A stretch of 64,000 bases of DNA, taken from positions 372,001 through 436,000 of the forward strand of contig CABHOK010000007.1 in the NCBI GenBank assembly GCA_902168205.1, read 5' to 3'. The notes below the pieces were generated by a model. The model searched no databases, had not been told where the DNA came from, and saw only the letters and a program-made list of their open reading frames with translations. The stretch comes from an uncultured Chitinophaga sp. Its GTDB lineage: Bacteria; Bacteroidota; Bacteroidia; Cytophagales; Cyclobacteriaceae. Below, piece by piece: positions 1,534-7,588 of the stretch (its first letter is position 1; each line of letters starts with the position of its first letter). The position numbers and the translations under genes were made by a program.

Positions 1534-2457
1534 TCAATTAAAAGACTGCCTGAATTCCAAAGGCGAAAGTTTCGTTTTGGTTTTGAAGAACTTACTGAAC
1601 GACTGCGAGTGTTCAAAACCCAAAGCGTACGCAACTTCTCCTACCGACAGACTGGTAGTGGAAAGCATCTCCTTCCCTTTTTCAATGAGCTTATCATGAA
1701 TGTGCTGCTGCGCATTTTTTCCGGTGAGTATACGGAGCATGTCGCTCAGATAGCTCGGTGATATATTTAACTGATCGGCCAGGTATTTAACGGTTGGTAT
1801 ACCGGACGCTTGCCCGCTGTCAAAGTGCTTCGTGAGTATATCTTCAAGTTTCAATAGTATATCATTACTGGCGGCCTTGCGTGTAATAAACTGCCGCTTG
1901 TAAAAACGATTCGCATAATTCAGCAACAGCTCCAGTTGCGACATAACTACATCCTGACTAAAATCATCGATCCGGCTGTTCAACTCTAATTCAATCATTT
2001 CAAAAATAGAAATGATAGTTTGTTTTTCATCCTCCGACAGATGCAATGCCTCATTGGCAGAGTAAGAGAAGAATCCATACTGCTTGATCGTTTTGGACAA
2101 CGAATGATTCAACAGAAAATCCGGATGAATCAGTAAAGTATATAACGAACATGTTTCGTTAACTTCACCTTCAATATTACGGTCGCCAAGGATCTGATTC
2201 GGAGCAGCGAACAGTAAACCACCTTCATCAAAATCATAATACCCCTGTCCATACCGTAACCTCCCCTTGCGGTTCGGCTTATAGGATATCTTATAAAAGT
2301 TCAACACATGCGAGGCGCTGGATCGGGAGCCCTCCGCCATTGATGACATATTTTTGAGCAAACTGATCAACGGATGCTTGGGCGCGGGCAAACCAAAGGC
2401 ACGATGTGCCTCAAGTAAAGACGTAAACCGCAGTGGACCATCTTCTTTCCTTTTCAT
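1534..2457 (-). CDS. AraC-family transcriptional regulator (copy A)
   Basis: A 307-residue protein with an N-terminal cupin-like sensor region (about 40-190; contains YGQGYYDFDEGGLLFAAPNQ) and a C-terminal AraC/XylS helix-turn-helix domain (about 205-305). The second helix region reads VGEVAYALGFEHSQSFSKFFK and the family ending is SPLEFRQSF. It lies 100 bp downstream of an SDR gene on the same strand and is probably co-transcribed with it. Its closest relative in the window is the AraC gene at 3518-4435, to which it aligns along its whole length, and the two genes share DNA identity at the 3' end (TGAATTCCAAAGGCGA in both). A role controlling the neighbouring oxidoreductases is inferred from context; the effector is unknown. 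Confidence 0.93.
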   Translation of the reverse strand: MKRKEDGPLRFTSLLEAHRAFGLPAPKHPLISLLKNMSSMAEGSRSSASHVLNFYKISYKPNRKGRLRYGQGYYDFDEGGLLFAAPNQILGDRNIEGEVNETCSLYTLLIHPDFLLNHSLSKTIKQYGFFSYSANEALHLSEDEKQTIISIFEMIELELNSRIDDFSQDVVMSQLELLLNYANRFYKRQFITRKAASNDILLKLEDILTKHFDSGQASGIPTVKYLADQLNISPSYLSDMLRILTGKNAQQHIHDKLIEKGKEMLSTTSLSVGEVAYALGFEHSQSFSKFFKTKTKLSPLEFRQSFN

Positions 2458-2557: not shown

Positions 2558-3400
2558 TTACGCTTGCGCAGCGTTAGAGACCTCCTCCCATGCTTCCCAG
2601 GTCGCTAACCGTTCGCTATAGGCTCCGCGGATCCACGACAAACCCTGGCTGCCCAGGATAAAACGAAGCGGTGGTTGCTCGGCATCCACGATGCGGAAGA
2701 TAGCCTGTGGTGTTGCATGAGGATCTCCCTGTTCCATTGTCTTCATACCGCCTATGAACTGCTCTTTAAACGAAGCGTATACATCGAGGCCTTGTGTGAA
2801 CTTCAACGAATCCTGGCTTCCAAACTCCGTTGCATAGGCCCCCGGCTCTATAATGCTCACGTTAATACCGAACTGTTTAATCTCGGCAGCAAGACTTTCA
2901 TGAATAGCTTCGAATGCCCATTTCGAAGAACAATAATAACCAACCACCGGAAATGTTACATGACCGAGGCTGCTTGATACACCCAGTATATGTCCCCGGC
3001 CCTGCTGTCTCATCAGCGGCAAAGCGGCTTTGATCACCGACAGTGTACCAAAAATATTTGTTTCATACTGGGCGCGAACGTCATCAGCATTCGTTTCTTC
3101 AATGGTACCTACAAGTGCATAGCCGGCATTATTCAGCAAAACGTCAATCCTTCCGAAGTGAGCATGGGCTTGCTTCACGGCTTTCTCTACCTGTTCAGGT
3201 TTGGTAACGTCTAGTTCAAGCGTTAAAACGTTCTCGCTATATTTTTGCTGAAGATCAGCAATGCTCGCTACATTTCTGGCTGTCGCTGCAACCTTGTCGC
3301 CACGTTCGAGTGCAGCCTGAGCCCAGATGCGTCCAAACCCGCGCGAAGTTCCTGTTATGAACCAAACTTTAGCTTTTGAATTTTCTTTCTGTTGCGTCAT
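2558..3400 (-). CDS. SDR-family oxidoreductase (copy A)
   Basis: A 280-residue classical short-chain dehydrogenase/reductase. The cofactor motif TGTSRGFG is near residue 16, NNAG near 91, a catalytic-type Ser in VSSSLG, and the YCSSK (YxxxK) active site near 160, all expected for NAD(P)-dependent carbonyl/alcohol oxidoreductases. It has no signal peptide, so it is cytoplasmic. The substrate cannot be read from the sequence. The upstream region holds a direct-repeat operator and a -7-like box shared with the second SDR gene (4486-5322), which suggests common control by the linked AraC proteins. ATG at 3400 is chosen because MTQQKENSKAKVWFITG gives the normal short lead into the Rossmann fold. 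Confidence 0.95.
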   Translation of the reverse strand: MTQQKENSKAKVWFITGTSRGFGRIWAQAALERGDKVAATARNVASIADLQQKYSENVLTLELDVTKPEQVEKAVKQAHAHFGRIDVLLNNAGYALVGTIEETNADDVRAQYETNIFGTLSVIKAALPLMRQQGRGHILGVSSSLGHVTFPVVGYYCSSKWAFEAIHESLAAEIKQFGINVSIIEPGAYATEFGSQDSLKFTQGLDVYASFKEQFIGGMKTMEQGDPHATPQAIFRIVDAEQPPLRFILGSQGLSWIRGAYSERLATWEAWEEVSNAAQA

Positions 3401-3424
3401 AAATAAGACTTTTAATTTATCGCA

Positions 3425-3432
3425 TCAAAAGT
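3425..3432 (-). promoter_or_regulatory. Candidate -7 box upstream of SDR copy A
   Basis: On the minus strand this reads GACTTTTG, a partial match to the Bacteroidota -7 consensus TAnnTTTG. It lies 25 bp upstream of the ATG and 20-21 bp from the direct-repeat operator, the same geometry as at the second SDR gene. Confidence 0.4.
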
Positions 3433-3452
3433 CTGCAGAGTTAAAATCTGCT

Positions 3453-3488
3453 TTGTAGCCAAATTGAGGGTTGTTGTAACCTAAATGA
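3453..3488 (-). promoter_or_regulatory. Direct-repeat operator (21-bp spacing), probable AraC site
   Basis: Two half-sites on the plus strand, ttgtagccaaattga (3453-3467) and ttgtaacctaaatga (3474-3488), start exactly 21 bp apart. The same pair with the same spacing occurs at 5387-5422. Nine of 15 positions are invariant in all four half-sites (TTGTANCNNAANNNA). Two tandem half-sites about two helical turns apart, next to the promoter, is the classic layout for AraC-family activators. Assignment to the neighbouring AraC genes is inference. Confidence 0.65.
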
Positions 3489-3517
3489 GAAAAGGTTGGG
3501 AAGTGAAAAGTATACTT

Positions 3518-4435
3518 TCAATTAAAGGAATGTCTGAATTCCAAAGGCGATACGTTCGTTTTGCTCTTGAATAATTTGTTGAACGACTGCGAATGCTCGA
3601 AGCCAAGCTGGTAAGCAATTTCACTTACCGAAAGTTTAGTGGTAGACAATTTCTCCTTTGCCTTTTCAATAAGCTTATCATGAATGTGATGTTGGGTTGA
3701 TTGTCCCGTTAACGCCTTTAGCAAACTGCCCAGGTAATTGGGCGATATATTTAAAACCTCAGCAATCTGCTGCGCAGTCGGCAAACCTTTTTCAATGAGG
3801 TCTTCACTGCTAAACCAATCGTCAAGAATCTTTTCCAATCGTTCAAGAACCAGGTGACTGCTTTTCTTCCGGGTTATAAATTGCCTTTGATAAAAACGTT
3901 CACAGTAATTCAACAGCAGTTGAATCTGAGCAATGATGATGTTGTGACTGAACTTATCAATATTAGCGTGATACTCCCGCTGTATATTCTGCATTAGTTC
4001 GGTGATAATGATTTCTTCTTTCTCTGACATGAACAACGCTTCGTTCACAGCATAACCGAAGAATTCATATTGCTTTATATCTTTTGCCAAAGGGGTATTC
4101 CATAAAAACTCCGGATGAATAAACAGCAGCATACCTGTTGGTTTTACCTTGGGCCTTTCAACGGTAAGATGTACCACTTGTCCAGGTGCTACAAATGAGA
4201 TCAGTCCTTCATCGAAATCATATTGCTGCTGTCCATAACGAAATTTACCCTGGATGTTACGTTTCAATCCAACCGAATAAAAGTTTTGTACCCAACTTAT
4301 TTCTTTCTCGTTGGTCTGGTATTCAACCAAACTATAGTCCACCAAACTAACCAGTGGATGTTCCGGTTTGGGCAAACCACTCATCTTGTGAAATTCACTA
4401 ATGGTATTGAAGGTGTAAATGTTCCTGGGTTTCAT
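3518..4435 (-). CDS. AraC-family transcriptional regulator (copy B)
   Basis: A 305-residue paralogue of the regulator at 1534-2457. It has an N-terminal sensor region (YGQQQYDFDEGLISFVAPGQ) and a C-terminal AraC helix-turn-helix pair, including SVSEIAYQLGFEHSQSFNKLFK and the ending SPLEFRHSFN. It starts 50 bp downstream of the SDR gene 4486-5322 on the same strand, so the order SDR-AraC-SDR-AraC is a repeated two-gene module. It is likely co-transcribed with that SDR gene and a candidate to bind the operators at 3453-3488 and 5387-5422, giving autoregulation through the shared transcript. Effector unknown. Confidence 0.93.
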   Translation of the reverse strand: MKPRNIYTFNTISEFHKMSGLPKPEHPLVSLVDYSLVEYQTNEKEISWVQNFYSVGLKRNIQGKFRYGQQQYDFDEGLISFVAPGQVVHLTVERPKVKPTGMLLFIHPEFLWNTPLAKDIKQYEFFGYAVNEALFMSEKEEIIITELMQNIQREYHANIDKFSHNIIIAQIQLLLNYCERFYQRQFITRKKSSHLVLERLEKILDDWFSSEDLIEKGLPTAQQIAEVLNISPNYLGSLLKALTGQSTQHHIHDKLIEKAKEKLSTTKLSVSEIAYQLGFEHSQSFNKLFKSKTNVSPLEFRHSFN

Positions 4436-4485
4436 AGATATATATAGAGGCAGAACTAAAGTATAGTTCCACCTCTTTTTATAGT

Positions 4486-5322
4486 TCAGTAATCAGTTGA
4501 CTTGCTCAGGGCCTCGTTGGCCGTGAGTTCGTTTTTCAATATATCAATTTTACTATTTGCCATTCCGAATGAATCGCTTCCCATGAAGAAATGCAAGGGA
4601 GGGTTTTGGTTCTCTGCTAATGTAATCAATGCAAGCGCTCCTTTTTCAGGATCACCCGGTTGATTACCCGGAATTTTTTCAAGATGCATCTGGTCAAGCT
4701 CCCTGGCTTCCTTATAGTCAGCAATAGGATTTGCTGCAAAACGTAACGATCCCTTAAGAAGAAAATTAGTTTTAAAGTAGCCCGGGTATACAATGGTAGC
4801 AGAGACTCCGAGCGACTTCACTTCAGCAGAAAAAGCTTCTGTTAATCCGGCTACTGCAAATTTAGTGGCGTTATATATGCCCCAGCCCGGAAACGCTCCT
4901 AAAAATCCTGCGATAGAAGAAATGTTGATGATGTGTCCCGACTTTTTCGCACGCAGGTGAGGCATCACGTGCCTGATCACATTCAGTACACCAAACACGT
5001 TGGCATCGAAGTTCTCACGCGACTCTTTATCCGTAAGTTCTTCAATTGTTCCCAACTGACCGTAGCCTGCGTTGTTTACCACCACATCTATACCTCCGAA
5101 AGTCTGCAATGTTTTGGCAATGGCATTGCCTATACTTTTCTCATTTACCACATCGGCTTCCAGGGGAAGAAAATTTACAGAGGAGCCCACTTCTCTGCTC
5201 AGCGCGTCTGCTGTTCTGGATGTTGCTGCTACACGGTAGCCTTCTTTTAAAAGTCTTTGCACCAATGTAAGACCGAGACCTTTTGATGCTCCGGTTACGA
5301 ACCATACTTTTTTAGTGTTCAT
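4486..5322 (-). CDS. SDR-family oxidoreductase (copy B)
   Basis: A 278-residue classical SDR with the cofactor motif TGASKGLG near residue 10, NNAGYG near 86, ISSIAG with the catalytic-type Ser, and the YNATK active site. It is cytoplasmic and NAD(P)-dependent; the substrate is unknown. It is related to the SDR at 2558-3400 but more diverged than the two AraC copies appear to be. Its promoter region (5323-5422) carries the same pair of half-sites and a CACCTTTG -7-like box. The AraC gene 3518-4435 follows after 50 bp. Confidence 0.95.
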   Translation of the reverse strand: MNTKKVWFVTGASKGLGLTLVQRLLKEGYRVAATSRTADALSREVGSSVNFLPLEADVVNEKSIGNAIAKTLQTFGGIDVVVNNAGYGQLGTIEELTDKESRENFDANVFGVLNVIRHVMPHLRAKKSGHIINISSIAGFLGAFPGWGIYNATKFAVAGLTEAFSAEVKSLGVSATIVYPGYFKTNFLLKGSLRFAANPIADYKEARELDQMHLEKIPGNQPGDPEKGALALITLAENQNPPLHFFMGSDSFGMANSKIDILKNELTANEALSKSTDY

Positions 5323-5359
5323 TATTGTTTATGTTTTTGTTGTTGAATAATTACACTAC

Positions 5360-5367
5360 AAAGGTGG
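5360..5367 (-). promoter_or_regulatory. Candidate -7 box upstream of SDR copy B
   Basis: On the minus strand this reads CACCTTTG (followed by TA), a partial match to TAnnTTTG, 20 bp from the operator and 38 bp upstream of the start codon. The identical CACCTTTGTA occurs on the plus strand at 5628-5637, upstream of the hydrolase gene at 5701. Confidence 0.45.
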
Positions 5368-5386
5368 CGCATGCAGCAGCGGCCGT

Positions 5387-5422
5387 TGTAGCTAAATCAA
5401 TGGTCGTTGTAGCCGAAACAAT
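5387..5422 (-). promoter_or_regulatory. Direct-repeat operator (21-bp spacing), second copy
   Basis: Half-sites ttgtagctaaatcaa (5387-5401) and ttgtagccgaaacaa (5408-5422) begin 21 bp apart, as at 3453-3488. Distance to the -7-like box is also conserved (20 versus 21 bp). This strengthens the case for a functional AraC-type activator site next to the -33 position. Confidence 0.65.
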
Positions 5423-5700: not shown

Positions 5701-6609
5701 ATGAAAACAAAAATTTTAACAATCGCATTCCTGGCAACCATACTCCTTTGCGGACAAACCTTCTCTCAGGGGAAAAGAGTACAAGCATCAGCCGGAAGAG
5801 AGGAATATATTGAAGTAGAGAAAAATGTACGGCTGCATGTAGTAGACCAGGGCGAAGGTCAGCCGATTGTGCTGATCCACGGCTGGCCGCTTAACAACGC
5901 CATGTATGAGTATCAATATCAATACCTGGTGCAGCGAGGTTTCAGAGTGATTGGTATCTCACTCCGTGGCTTTGGTAAATCCGATAAACCATATGGCCGA
6001 TACGACTTCGATGTATCATCCGATGATATCAAAGCCGTATTGGAGAAACTGAAAATTGAAAACGCAGTCTTGGGAGGTTTCTCCATGGGCGGTGCGGTTG
6101 TTCTTCACTATGTAACCAAGTATAACAGTGCTCACGTCAGTAAACTGGCATTGTTTGCAGCAGCGGCACCGTCATGGGTACAACGTCCTGGTTTTCCCTA
6201 TGGGCTGACGGAGAAAGATGCACAGGCATTCATTCAATTAACGGCAACGGACAGACCGCAGGTGCTTGACAATTTTGGGAAGGCTATGGCCGCTACTGAA
6301 ACCGGAATCTCCGAAGGTATGTCGAGCTGGTTAAGAAGCATCAACATGGAAGCATCACCGTATGCCGCTACCGAATCAATCCGTTCACTCGCCAAACTCG
6401 ATTTACGACCCGAGCTCGCGAAGATAAAAATACCGGTAGCGATCTTCCACGGTGTAAAAGACAAGTTGTGCGACTTTGCTTTCGCGGAGCAACTTCACCA
6501 GGGGATAAAGAACTCCTATATCGTAAAGTTTGAGAACAGCGGTCATGCACTCTTCATAGAGGAAATGCAGAAGTTCAACACTGAATTAGAGAAATTTGCT
6601 ACCCGGTAA
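5701..6609 (+). CDS. Secreted alpha/beta hydrolase (haloperoxidase/esterase-like)
   Basis: A 302-residue protein starting with a signal peptide (MKTKILTIAFLATILLCGQTFS, cut near 22). The alpha/beta-hydrolase core shows the oxyanion segment LIHGWPLNNAMYEYQ (near 60), the nucleophile elbow GGFSMGG (Ser near 130), the acid in HGVKDKLCD and the catalytic His in NSGHALF (near 281). This arrangement matches cofactor-free haloperoxidase/arylesterase-like serine hydrolases. It is probably periplasmic; the substrate is unknown. It is transcribed away from the SDR/AraC cluster and ends at a strong terminator, so it forms its own transcript. Its -7-like box is identical to that of SDR copy B, which hints at coordinated expression, although the operator repeats are absent. 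Confidence 0.92.
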   Translation: MKTKILTIAFLATILLCGQTFSQGKRVQASAGREEYIEVEKNVRLHVVDQGEGQPIVLIHGWPLNNAMYEYQYQYLVQRGFRVIGISLRGFGKSDKPYGRYDFDVSSDDIKAVLEKLKIENAVLGGFSMGGAVVLHYVTKYNSAHVSKLALFAAAAPSWVQRPGFPYGLTEKDAQAFIQLTATDRPQVLDNFGKAMAATETGISEGMSSWLRSINMEASPYAATESIRSLAKLDLRPELAKIKIPVAIFHGVKDKLCDFAFAEQLHQGIKNSYIVKFENSGHALFIEEMQKFNTELEKFATR

Positions 6610-6620
6610 ACAGCCCCCTG

Positions 6621-6656
6621 CAGATGCAGCGTTCACAACACGCTGCATCTGTTTTT
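6621..6656 (+). terminator. Rho-independent terminator after the hydrolase
   Basis: A perfect 11-bp stem, cagatgcagcg (6621-6631) and cgctgcatctg (6641-6651), with a 9-nt loop and five T. It begins 12 bases after the stop and separates the hydrolase from the AraC gene at 6725. Confidence 0.93.
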
Positions 6657-6724
6657 ATAAAGAGAAACTTCAGCGATAGCGATAATAATTATATCTTTCA
6701 CGCATATACTCATTTCGATAAGAC

Positions 6725-7588
6725 ATGAACAAGGCCAATTTATTTGAAAGTACTTTTAAGAGGTTAGGCATGGTACAGGTAAGCGAAACCAATGTTGATG
6801 ACATCAACAGCAGCACGTACAAACCGTATATAAAAGTATTGTATCTGCCGAAAGGCTATAAACTCACCATAGATTTTGGAGTATATGTTACGCGGCAGCC
6901 TTCGCTCTTTTTTGTTGCACCGAACCAGGTTCTTAAAATCGAAGCGTGTGGTCCGGAGAAAGGATTTTTTATTTTTTACAACCGTGATTTCTATTGCATT
7001 CAGATACACGACAACGAAGTTGCCTGTGACGGTCTGCTGTATAACAATATCAATAATATACCACTGGTAACTGTTCACAAAGAAGACAGTGCTTTCATCA
7101 ACTATTTATTCAAACAAATAGAAGAAGAGTTCGAACTGCGCGATACATCACTGGAAGAAATGATCCGTACATACCTGAAGCAGTTACTCATTAAAGCTAC
7201 GCGCCTGTGGAAGAAACAACACCTGGAAAAATTGATCGTAGAACAAAACCATGACCTGGAGTTCTTCAGAAAATTTACGCTGCTGGTTGATGTACATTAT
7301 AAAGAAAAGCATACCGTTGCCGACTATGCAGATGTTCTCTCGATGGCAGCCAAAACGGTGACACACAAATTCAAGCGCATGAATTTACCGCAGCCAAACG
7401 AGATCATTAAAAACCGGATCATACTCGAAGCCAAAAGACTACTCGTGCATACTTCCATGACGGCAAAAGAAATTGCGCATGAATTGGGATATGAAGATCC
7501 TGCCTATTTCAGCCGACAGTTCCAGATCAAGACGGGTGAATCGCCTTCCGGTTTCAGAACAAAATACCTGAAAGCCGGCAAGGTATAG
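6725..7588 (+). CDS. AraC-family transcriptional regulator (third, distinct type)
   Basis: A 287-residue regulator with an N-terminal sensor region (about 30-170, including SLFFVAPNQVLKIEACGPEKG) and a C-terminal AraC domain (about 185-283). HTH 1 lies around HTVADYADVLSMAAKTVTHKF, HTH 2 around MTAKEIAHELGYEDPAYFSRQF, and the family ending is SPSGFRTKYL. It is clearly different in sequence from the two paralogous AraC proteins at 1534 and 3518. It stands alone between the hydrolase terminator and a DUF4240 gene. Its target is unknown; the adjacent secreted hydrolase is the nearest candidate. Confidence 0.92.
   Translation: MNKANLFESTFKRLGMVQVSETNVDDINSSTYKPYIKVLYLPKGYKLTIDFGVYVTRQPSLFFVAPNQVLKIEACGPEKGFFIFYNRDFYCIQIHDNEVACDGLLYNNINNIPLVTVHKEDSAFINYLFKQIEEEFELRDTSLEEMIRTYLKQLLIKATRLWKKQHLEKLIVEQNHDLEFFRKFTLLVDVHYKEKHTVADYADVLSMAAKTVTHKFKRMNLPQPNEIIKNRIILEAKRLLVHTSMTAKEIAHELGYEDPAYFSRQFQIKTGESPSGFRTKYLKAGKV

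Follow-up and report, generated by a model that had tools for sequence, protein, structure and literature searches.

In a 64,000-nucleotide stretch of DNA from an uncultured Chitinophaga sp. (the window), two genes for short-chain dehydrogenases (SDRs) are each preceded by a pair of direct repeats and followed by the gene of an AraC-family regulator. We asked which protein reads these repeats and whether both pairs belong to a single circuit, as an earlier note on this DNA had proposed in describing them as class II AraC-family operators of one small regulon.

Two modules and their probable operators

Open reading frames and domain searches gave the minus-strand gene order SDR2-AraC2-SDR1-AraC1 (Table 1). 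The two AraC proteins matched PF12833 (HTH_18) at 67.5 and 68.5 bits (cut-off 33.6) and, having two helix-turn-helix motifs in the C-terminal part, are members of the one-component AraC/XylS family; AraC2 is the presumed reader of the module 2 operator. Beyond that operator, on the other strand, window positions 5701-7588 hold an alpha/beta hydrolase gene and another AraC-family gene, with no operator there in the genome-wide model search described below, and a long open frame at 1-1418 presumably corresponds to the C-terminal part of a catalase-peroxidase.

Table 1. Genes, operators and -7 boxes of the two modules in the window
Feature	Position	Strand	Description
SDR2	4486..5322	-	classical short-chain dehydrogenase, 278 aa; PF00106 E 1.7e-47
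AraC2	3518..4435	-	305 aa; HTH_18 E 6.3e-19; cupin-like N-terminal domain and two helix-turn-helix motifs
SDR1	2558..3400	-	classical short-chain dehydrogenase, 280 aa; PF00106 E 2e-47; PRK08263 362.9 bits (cut-off 290)
AraC1	1534..2457	-	307 aa; HTH_18 E 1.3e-18; paralogue of AraC2, 50% identical
Module 2 operator	5383..5421	-	two direct-repeat half-sites, 21-bp period; cores from 5386 and 5407 (+ numbering)
Module 1 operator	3450..3488	-	two direct-repeat half-sites, 21-bp period; cores from 3453 and 3474 (+ numbering)
SDR2 promoter -7 box CACCTTTG	5359..5366	-	from sequence; same column in 87 aligned sites
SDR1 promoter -7 box GACTTTTG	3426..3433	-	from sequence; column shared with other loci

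A pattern search of the window for TTGTANCNNAANNNA gave four exact matches, at 3453, 3474, 5386 and 5407 (+), and confirmed the nine invariant positions and the exact 21-bp spacing of both pairs that had been claimed; the first two coordinates had been given correctly, whereas the other two (5387 and 5408) had been placed one base too high. In the sense orientation the half-site consensus is wTTYGRCTACAACAA, with the second copy in the same direction 21 bp on. The -7-like box was likewise confirmed, its claimed distance of 20-21 bp narrowing to 20 bp in both modules, which is what separates the promoter-proximal half-site (3453, 5386) from the box's upstream end (3433, 5366). A TAnnTTTG -7 box has been mapped to -12 to -5 in Flavobacterium psychrophilum (PMC9723704), and if the box sits likewise here, transcription is predicted to start near 5354 for SDR2 and near 3421 for SDR1. 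Reckoned from the -7 box, the proximal half-site would span about -46 to -29. The -33 element of promoters would fall within this region. Direct repeats about 21 bp apart, with the proximal one over the -35/-33 region, are the layout of a class II operator.

Single half-sites with up to one mismatch were not enriched in the window (20 found against 20.1 expected). The pair occurred twice exactly and once more elsewhere with three mismatches, while shuffled windows held a mean of 0.79 pairs at up to three mismatches and reached three pairs in 5 of 100 shuffles.

Conservation of the operator among relatives

Loci were fetched for the best 80 of 484 relatives of AraC2, and a weight matrix covering columns -4 to 35 was grown from 41 seed sites on those same 80 loci. 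Above 14 bits the matrix found 88 sites in 77 of the 80, every one of them in the sense orientation, whereas the antisense, reversed and complemented sequences of these loci gave none; lowering the cut to 10 bits gave 90 sites against 1, 1 and 1 in the respective controls. Three loci had no site at first pass, and when they were re-examined a clear site emerged in L086 (25.8 bits) and weak ones in L048 (13.9 and 8.7 bits), while nothing in L063 scored above 4.8 bits. Sites were retained down to a protein identity of 60%. The spectrum of spacings peaked at 21 bp (30 pairs), no other spacing accounting for more than 5 pairs, and half-sites of the same promoter were more alike than mispaired ones (0.594 versus 0.522, sd 0.007, the largest of 200 mispairings being 0.543). 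Since a site precedes the genes in 77 of these 80 loci, the repeats are conserved upstream of orthologous SDR genes, as the earlier note's proposal demands.

The -7 box is conserved along with the repeats. Although they lie outside the trained columns, the four bases TTTG at columns 55-58 are present in 85, 86, 87 and 79 of 87 aligned rows, and the form at this fixed column is [CG]AnCTTTG, the leading T of the box being mostly C or G. With a -7 box of the TAnnTTTG kind, this is a Bacteroidota sigma-A promoter. The 21-bp direct repeats, the -7 register and the conservation in 77 of the best 80 loci together give good support to the proposal of an AraC-family operator in class II layout.

Among 85 first genes after sites, 79 fell into one similarity cluster containing the SDRs, four were the AraC gene itself, one encoded a zinc-type dehydrogenase and one was unrelated; Pfam searches of the 85 gave overlapping counts of 31 classical SDR, 58 NAD_binding_10 and 48 NmrA matches. 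By these counts the operator follows the AraC subfamily and NAD(P)-binding Rossmann proteins generally rather than one SDR. A third half-site 21 bp farther upstream was found with up to one mismatch in 0 of 84 sites and with two mismatches in 2, and we rejected it as a general feature.

By their record titles nearly all of the best 80 loci are from Bacteroidota of several orders, with one from a metagenome-assembled genome (MAG) labelled Anaerolineae. In the latter (L038), a contig of 18.5 kb encodes an AraC of 66% identity and has an operator that lacks the TTTG -7 box, which would fit either a misbinned Bacteroidota contig or a transfer. Four further loci have two operators each, one before the AraC gene and one before its neighbour (L034 at 3707 and 4958, L040 at 1765 and 3915, L042 at 3909 and 4991, L057 at 3912 and 4930), an arrangement that, judged from sequence, gives each gene a separate promoter instead of an operon.

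Sites in the source genome

A whole-genome search for the pair, as the earlier note had advised, gave a divided result: pairs with up to two mismatches were not above the level of the mirrored control (10 versus 13), but four pairs had no mismatch or one, so that the genomic signal consists of these four pairs and of the matches to a trained model. This model (R1) was built from 84 of the 88 sites, none of them from the source genome; the four left out beforehand comprised second registers, one site at a locus end and that of the Anaerolineae MAG. With 150 of 2712 first-look candidates in the 7.3-Mb genome scored, R1 returned four sites at E <= 0.01, the next best match (E 3.4) being noise: the module 2 operator (42.3 bits, E 3.8e-10, at 5357-5420), a site on contig C11 (35.0 bits), the module 1 operator (32.5 bits, E 4.4e-7, at 3426-3485) and a site on C3 (18.6 bits). 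The site is thus not limited to the two modules in which it was noticed. Three of the four adjoin SDR-AraC pairs of one AraC subfamily, the C3 site preceding such a pair.

The fourth, on C11, points away from a shortened AraC towards a 148-aa gene, which we take to be STAS-like and to be followed by a cupin-like gene. At this locus (C11:115006-116600; L004, L102) the shortened AraC belongs to the subfamily and is divergent from the strong operator, with the cupin-like gene after the 148-aa gene; this AraC lacks about 60 N-terminal residues, since its profile match starts at position 60. The sequence may reflect either the capture of the operator by a different gene or a rearrangement of the cassette.

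Six AraC-subfamily proteins of the source genome score above 300 bits, and four of them have sites (modules 1 and 2, C3 and C11). For the other two (C4:65990 and C7:283556) no operator was found in the genome, and their second recognition helix has SYF and QHF instead of QSF. These sister genes of the SYF/QHF type lie beside an SDR gene (L103, C4:64000-69000) and beside an aldo-keto-reductase-like gene (L104, C7:281500-287500), in both cases without an operator, and to judge from their helices such paralogues should use a different one.

Co-occurrence of site and regulator across genomes

We compared the presence of the site and of the AraC subfamily in 59 relatives and in 296 genomes of the phylum, two sets with 4 sites in common, using cuts set by hand (at least 24 bits for a site, at least 370 bits for an AraC) and counting a site as linked when the two lay within 5 kb. 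Linked sites made up 28 of 30 in the relatives and 31 of 34 in the phylum. No genome in either set had a site of at least 24 bits without an AraC of at least 370 bits, and the association at the level of genomes was strong (Fisher, 3.4e-12 in the relatives and 1.6e-29 in the phylum). Genomes with the AraC and no site of at least 24 bits numbered 2 of 17 and 4 of 26, respectively. Linkage fell with the score, to 5 of 7 and 10 of 22 for sites of 20-24 bits and to 2 of 5 and 5 of 24 below 20 bits; one unlinked match under the cut, in G318, scored 23.9 bits.

Counted from the side of the regulator, 31 of 52 AraC genes of at least 370 bits in the relatives and 42 of 73 in the phylum had a model match within 5 kb, and subfamily AraC genes with sites occurred in 15 of the 59 relatives and 22 of the 296 phylum genomes, counts from both sets that may be too low since few candidates were scored per genome. 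Among 66 held-out AraC genes, 11 had no site scoring above 0 within 2.6 kb upstream.

Which protein reads the site

A structure model of AraC2, made from an alignment of 45 chosen AraC rows (mean pLDDT 83.4, pTM 0.61), placed the recognition helices at residues 232-243 (HTH1) and 282-293 (HTH2). The DNA-binding part matched AraC (2k9s) and SoxS (7w5w) by sequence and the MarA-DNA complex (1bl0) by fold. In the N-terminal region of AraC1 and AraC2 the domain search found no Pfam domain; the modelled N-terminal fold of AraC2 resembled that of RhaR from E. coli (5u93_B, TM by target 0.67) and that of AraC (2arc, 0.60), and on this fold match it is predicted to be a cupin-like dimerisation/ligand domain. 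The rows with the best E-values, Rns and ToxT, fitted the whole chain poorly (rmsd near 21).

The presence of the site followed residue 284, in the second recognition helix. In a sample of 160 AraC proteins, composed of the best 80 of 484 and 80 from relatives with a few records in both, a site accompanied Ser284 in 128 of 133 cases but none of the 26 proteins with a different residue there, the remaining row being a gap; many sites of the first 80 had trained the matrix. A tree of 121 thinned rows, in which L179, L182 and roughly half of the best 80 are not represented, showed three changes, so that Ser284 and the operator mark essentially one clade.

The identity of two bases in the site followed residue 287, which lies in the same helix. 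Among 183 AraC-site pairs, from which L051 (and in places also L187) had been excluded, all 174 with Lys or Arg at 287 had a purine at column 25 and 169 of them also had one at column 4, none of the 174 showing C in the two columns together, while of the nine with Thr, Ser or Ala eight had C in both. As columns 4 and 25 occupy equivalent positions in the two half-sites, both half-sites had changed together. The proteins without Lys or Arg represent two lineages, one of seven proteins that are 75-83% mutually identical (STLF or SALF) and one from Fibrella (L076), with Ser at 287, whose closest relative with Lys or Arg there (74% identity) carries G and A in the two columns; the exception to the rule, L303, has a weak site. 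Among 66 held-out loci, from which L241 was excluded as a duplicate of a training row, C occupied both columns in 4 of 5 with Thr, Ser or Ala and in 0 of 50 with Lys or Arg. Sites, spacing, -7 register, linkage to the AraC subfamily and this co-variation of residue and base can all be read from the sequence. Co-occurrence and co-variation support the neighbouring AraC subfamily as the likely reader of the operator, with residue 287 as the best evidence.

Scans for operators of the C type with up to one mismatch gave 10 matches versus 6 in the mirrored control for 395 genomes of the phylum, and 13 versus 11 for 395 genomes of the class (the sets overlap), so that most of these matches are due to chance. 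Of the 20 distinct matches, three were in both lists and 2 were already known, which left 18 regions to be read. Three of them had TTTG in register, and in each the downstream AraC has Thr287 and is of the STLF type, one region having a Lys287 AraC upstream of the site as well; the other 15 had neither TTTG in register nor an AraC match.

For the first helix, a rule that paired residue 236 with the base at column 18 (G to T, S to A, R to C) was striking in the first 127 pairs, but the code was rejected when it predicted 18 of 32 held-out loci correctly against 15.5 by shuffling (largest 20), and this failure suggests that the rule reflects clade structure; independent-pair tests on the tree gave 2 to 5 supported pairs among those listed. 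The co-variation of HTH1 with the A-box and of HTH2 with the B-box as blocks was reached by 0 to 2 of 200 shuffles, but other windows of 12 residues in the protein co-varied almost as strongly, and after thinning at 75% identity more strongly than these. Block co-variation is no more than suggestive of HTH1 reading the upstream block and HTH2 the core.

Proposed mechanism and alternative readings

With high probability, each pair of half-sites serves an SDR-AraC operon as its class II operator and is bound by that operon's own AraC as a dimer. Binding, dimerisation, activation, ligand response and autoregulation are what we infer for its working. The AraC would dimerise through its RhaR/AraC-like cupin domain, which may also bind the ligand, and the two monomers would lie head to tail in the same orientation, 21 bp or two helical turns apart. 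HTH2 would read the GRCTACA core of each half-site, residue 287 contacting the base at column 4 in the distal and at column 25 in the proximal half-site, and the tAGa block upstream of the core, which is less conserved, is probably read by HTH1. The proximal monomer would take the place of the -33 element and contact RNA polymerase at the -7-box promoter, as in class II activation. The signal would be a ligand, possibly the dehydrogenase's own substrate or product, that turns on SDR and AraC together, and enzyme and regulator being made together would amount to positive autoregulation.

The strongest competitor, which we consider somewhat improbable, is the single small regulon of the earlier note, in which AraC1 and AraC2 would each bind both operators (and those on C3 and C11) and one inducer would open them all. 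The operators share their core, the HTH2 helices of AraC1 and AraC2 are nearly identical (GFEHSQSFSKFFK and GFEHSQSFNKLFK, both with K287), and the genome has only four model matches; but each SDR-AraC pair has an operator of its own in front, the upstream blocks at columns 16-20 are unlike (ATTGA versus CTCAA), and the HTH1 helices differ at residues 233, 236, 237, 238, 240 and 241. The argument from HTH1 is a weak one, since the per-base rule for this helix failed in held-out data. On balance, with an operator of its own for each pair and with unlike upstream blocks and HTH1 helices, the claim of one regulon was not borne out.

It is unlikely that the AraC acts instead as a repressor, covering the -33 region and keeping RNA polymerase out until it is freed by a ligand. 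One-component regulators often repress their own genes, and the proximal half-site does overlap the expected place of the -33 element, but across the aligned sites both the orientation and the spacing from the -7 box are constant, which fits a contact made by an activator better than it fits a roadblock. Far less probable still is a different, global regulator to whose repeats the AraC is an incidental neighbour. Such a regulator would account for the sites of at least 24 bits that are not linked to a subfamily AraC (2 of 30 in the relatives, 3 of 34 in the phylum) and for the frequent lack of linkage among weaker matches, yet every genome with a site of at least 24 bits among the 59 relatives and 296 phylum genomes has the AraC subfamily, the presence of the site tracks residue 284 of HTH2, and in both half-sites its bases track the neighbouring AraC's residue 287. 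A resemblance that is accidental, or that duplicated promoters have inherited without its serving any function, would suit the paralogy of the modules and the lack of enrichment of one-mismatch half-sites, but it has almost no probability given sites in 77 of the best 80 loci down to 60% identity, zero control matches at the same cut, and first genes as unlike as classical SDRs and NmrA-like proteins.

Relation to known systems

The spacing of AraC I1 and I2, their overlap with the -35 element, and class II AraC/XylS operators in general are textbook knowledge. XylS recognises repeats with box A (TGCA), 6 bp and box B (GGTA), according to PMC5481539. Like araI1-I2 and the XylS-dependent Pm operator of Proteobacteria, the present sites are two direct repeats with an upstream box A and a downstream box B; unlike them, they have other bases, a Bacteroidota -7 promoter of the TAnnTTTG type and first genes mostly of the SDR superfamily.

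A closer likeness is found within the phylum. Operators of the hybrid two-component systems (HTCS) of Bacteroides thetaiotaomicron are described in PMC3878776 as AraC-type direct repeats about 21 bp apart, and the resemblance considered here is one of layout (tandem repeats of about 21 bp, AraC-type readers). HTCS, as that source presents them, are membrane sensor-kinase hybrids acting on polysaccharide genes, whereas here a 305-aa AraC stands beside dehydrogenases; AraC1 and AraC2 show AraC-type HTH matches alone, with none of the sensor, histidine kinase and receiver domains that an HTCS joins to its AraC domain. The same paper lists the RhaR of Bacteroidetes, like our proteins a one-component AraC-family regulator of this phylum, but lists it for rhamnose.

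We found no paper in the open-access literature on this operator, this AraC subfamily or a residue-287 switch, in agreement with the view that the operator was undescribed. The architecture, with tandem AraC-type repeats about 21 bp apart, is already described for Bacteroides, and the present case is thus a new example of a familiar type of switch; the operator and the AraC subfamily are new to the literature searched.

Implications

Having argued that each operator is most probably read by the AraC of its own operon, we may ask how far this extends. The Bacteroidota may carry a large, duplicating family of self-contained SDR-AraC switches with one operator core and a recognition code that can be read in part, in which residue 287 of the second recognition helix sets the same base in both half-sites, a generalisation from sequence on which we remain evenly divided. 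If it is true, sequence alone would be enough to match operators with their regulators and to tell insulated paralogues from cross-wired ones, and the specificity attributed to residue 287 is testable by a single swap. The model of operator and -7 box allows promoters, start sites and regulons of SDR-AraC pairs to be predicted, and it offers a starting point in the search for inducers and in the construction of inducible promoters in Bacteroidota.
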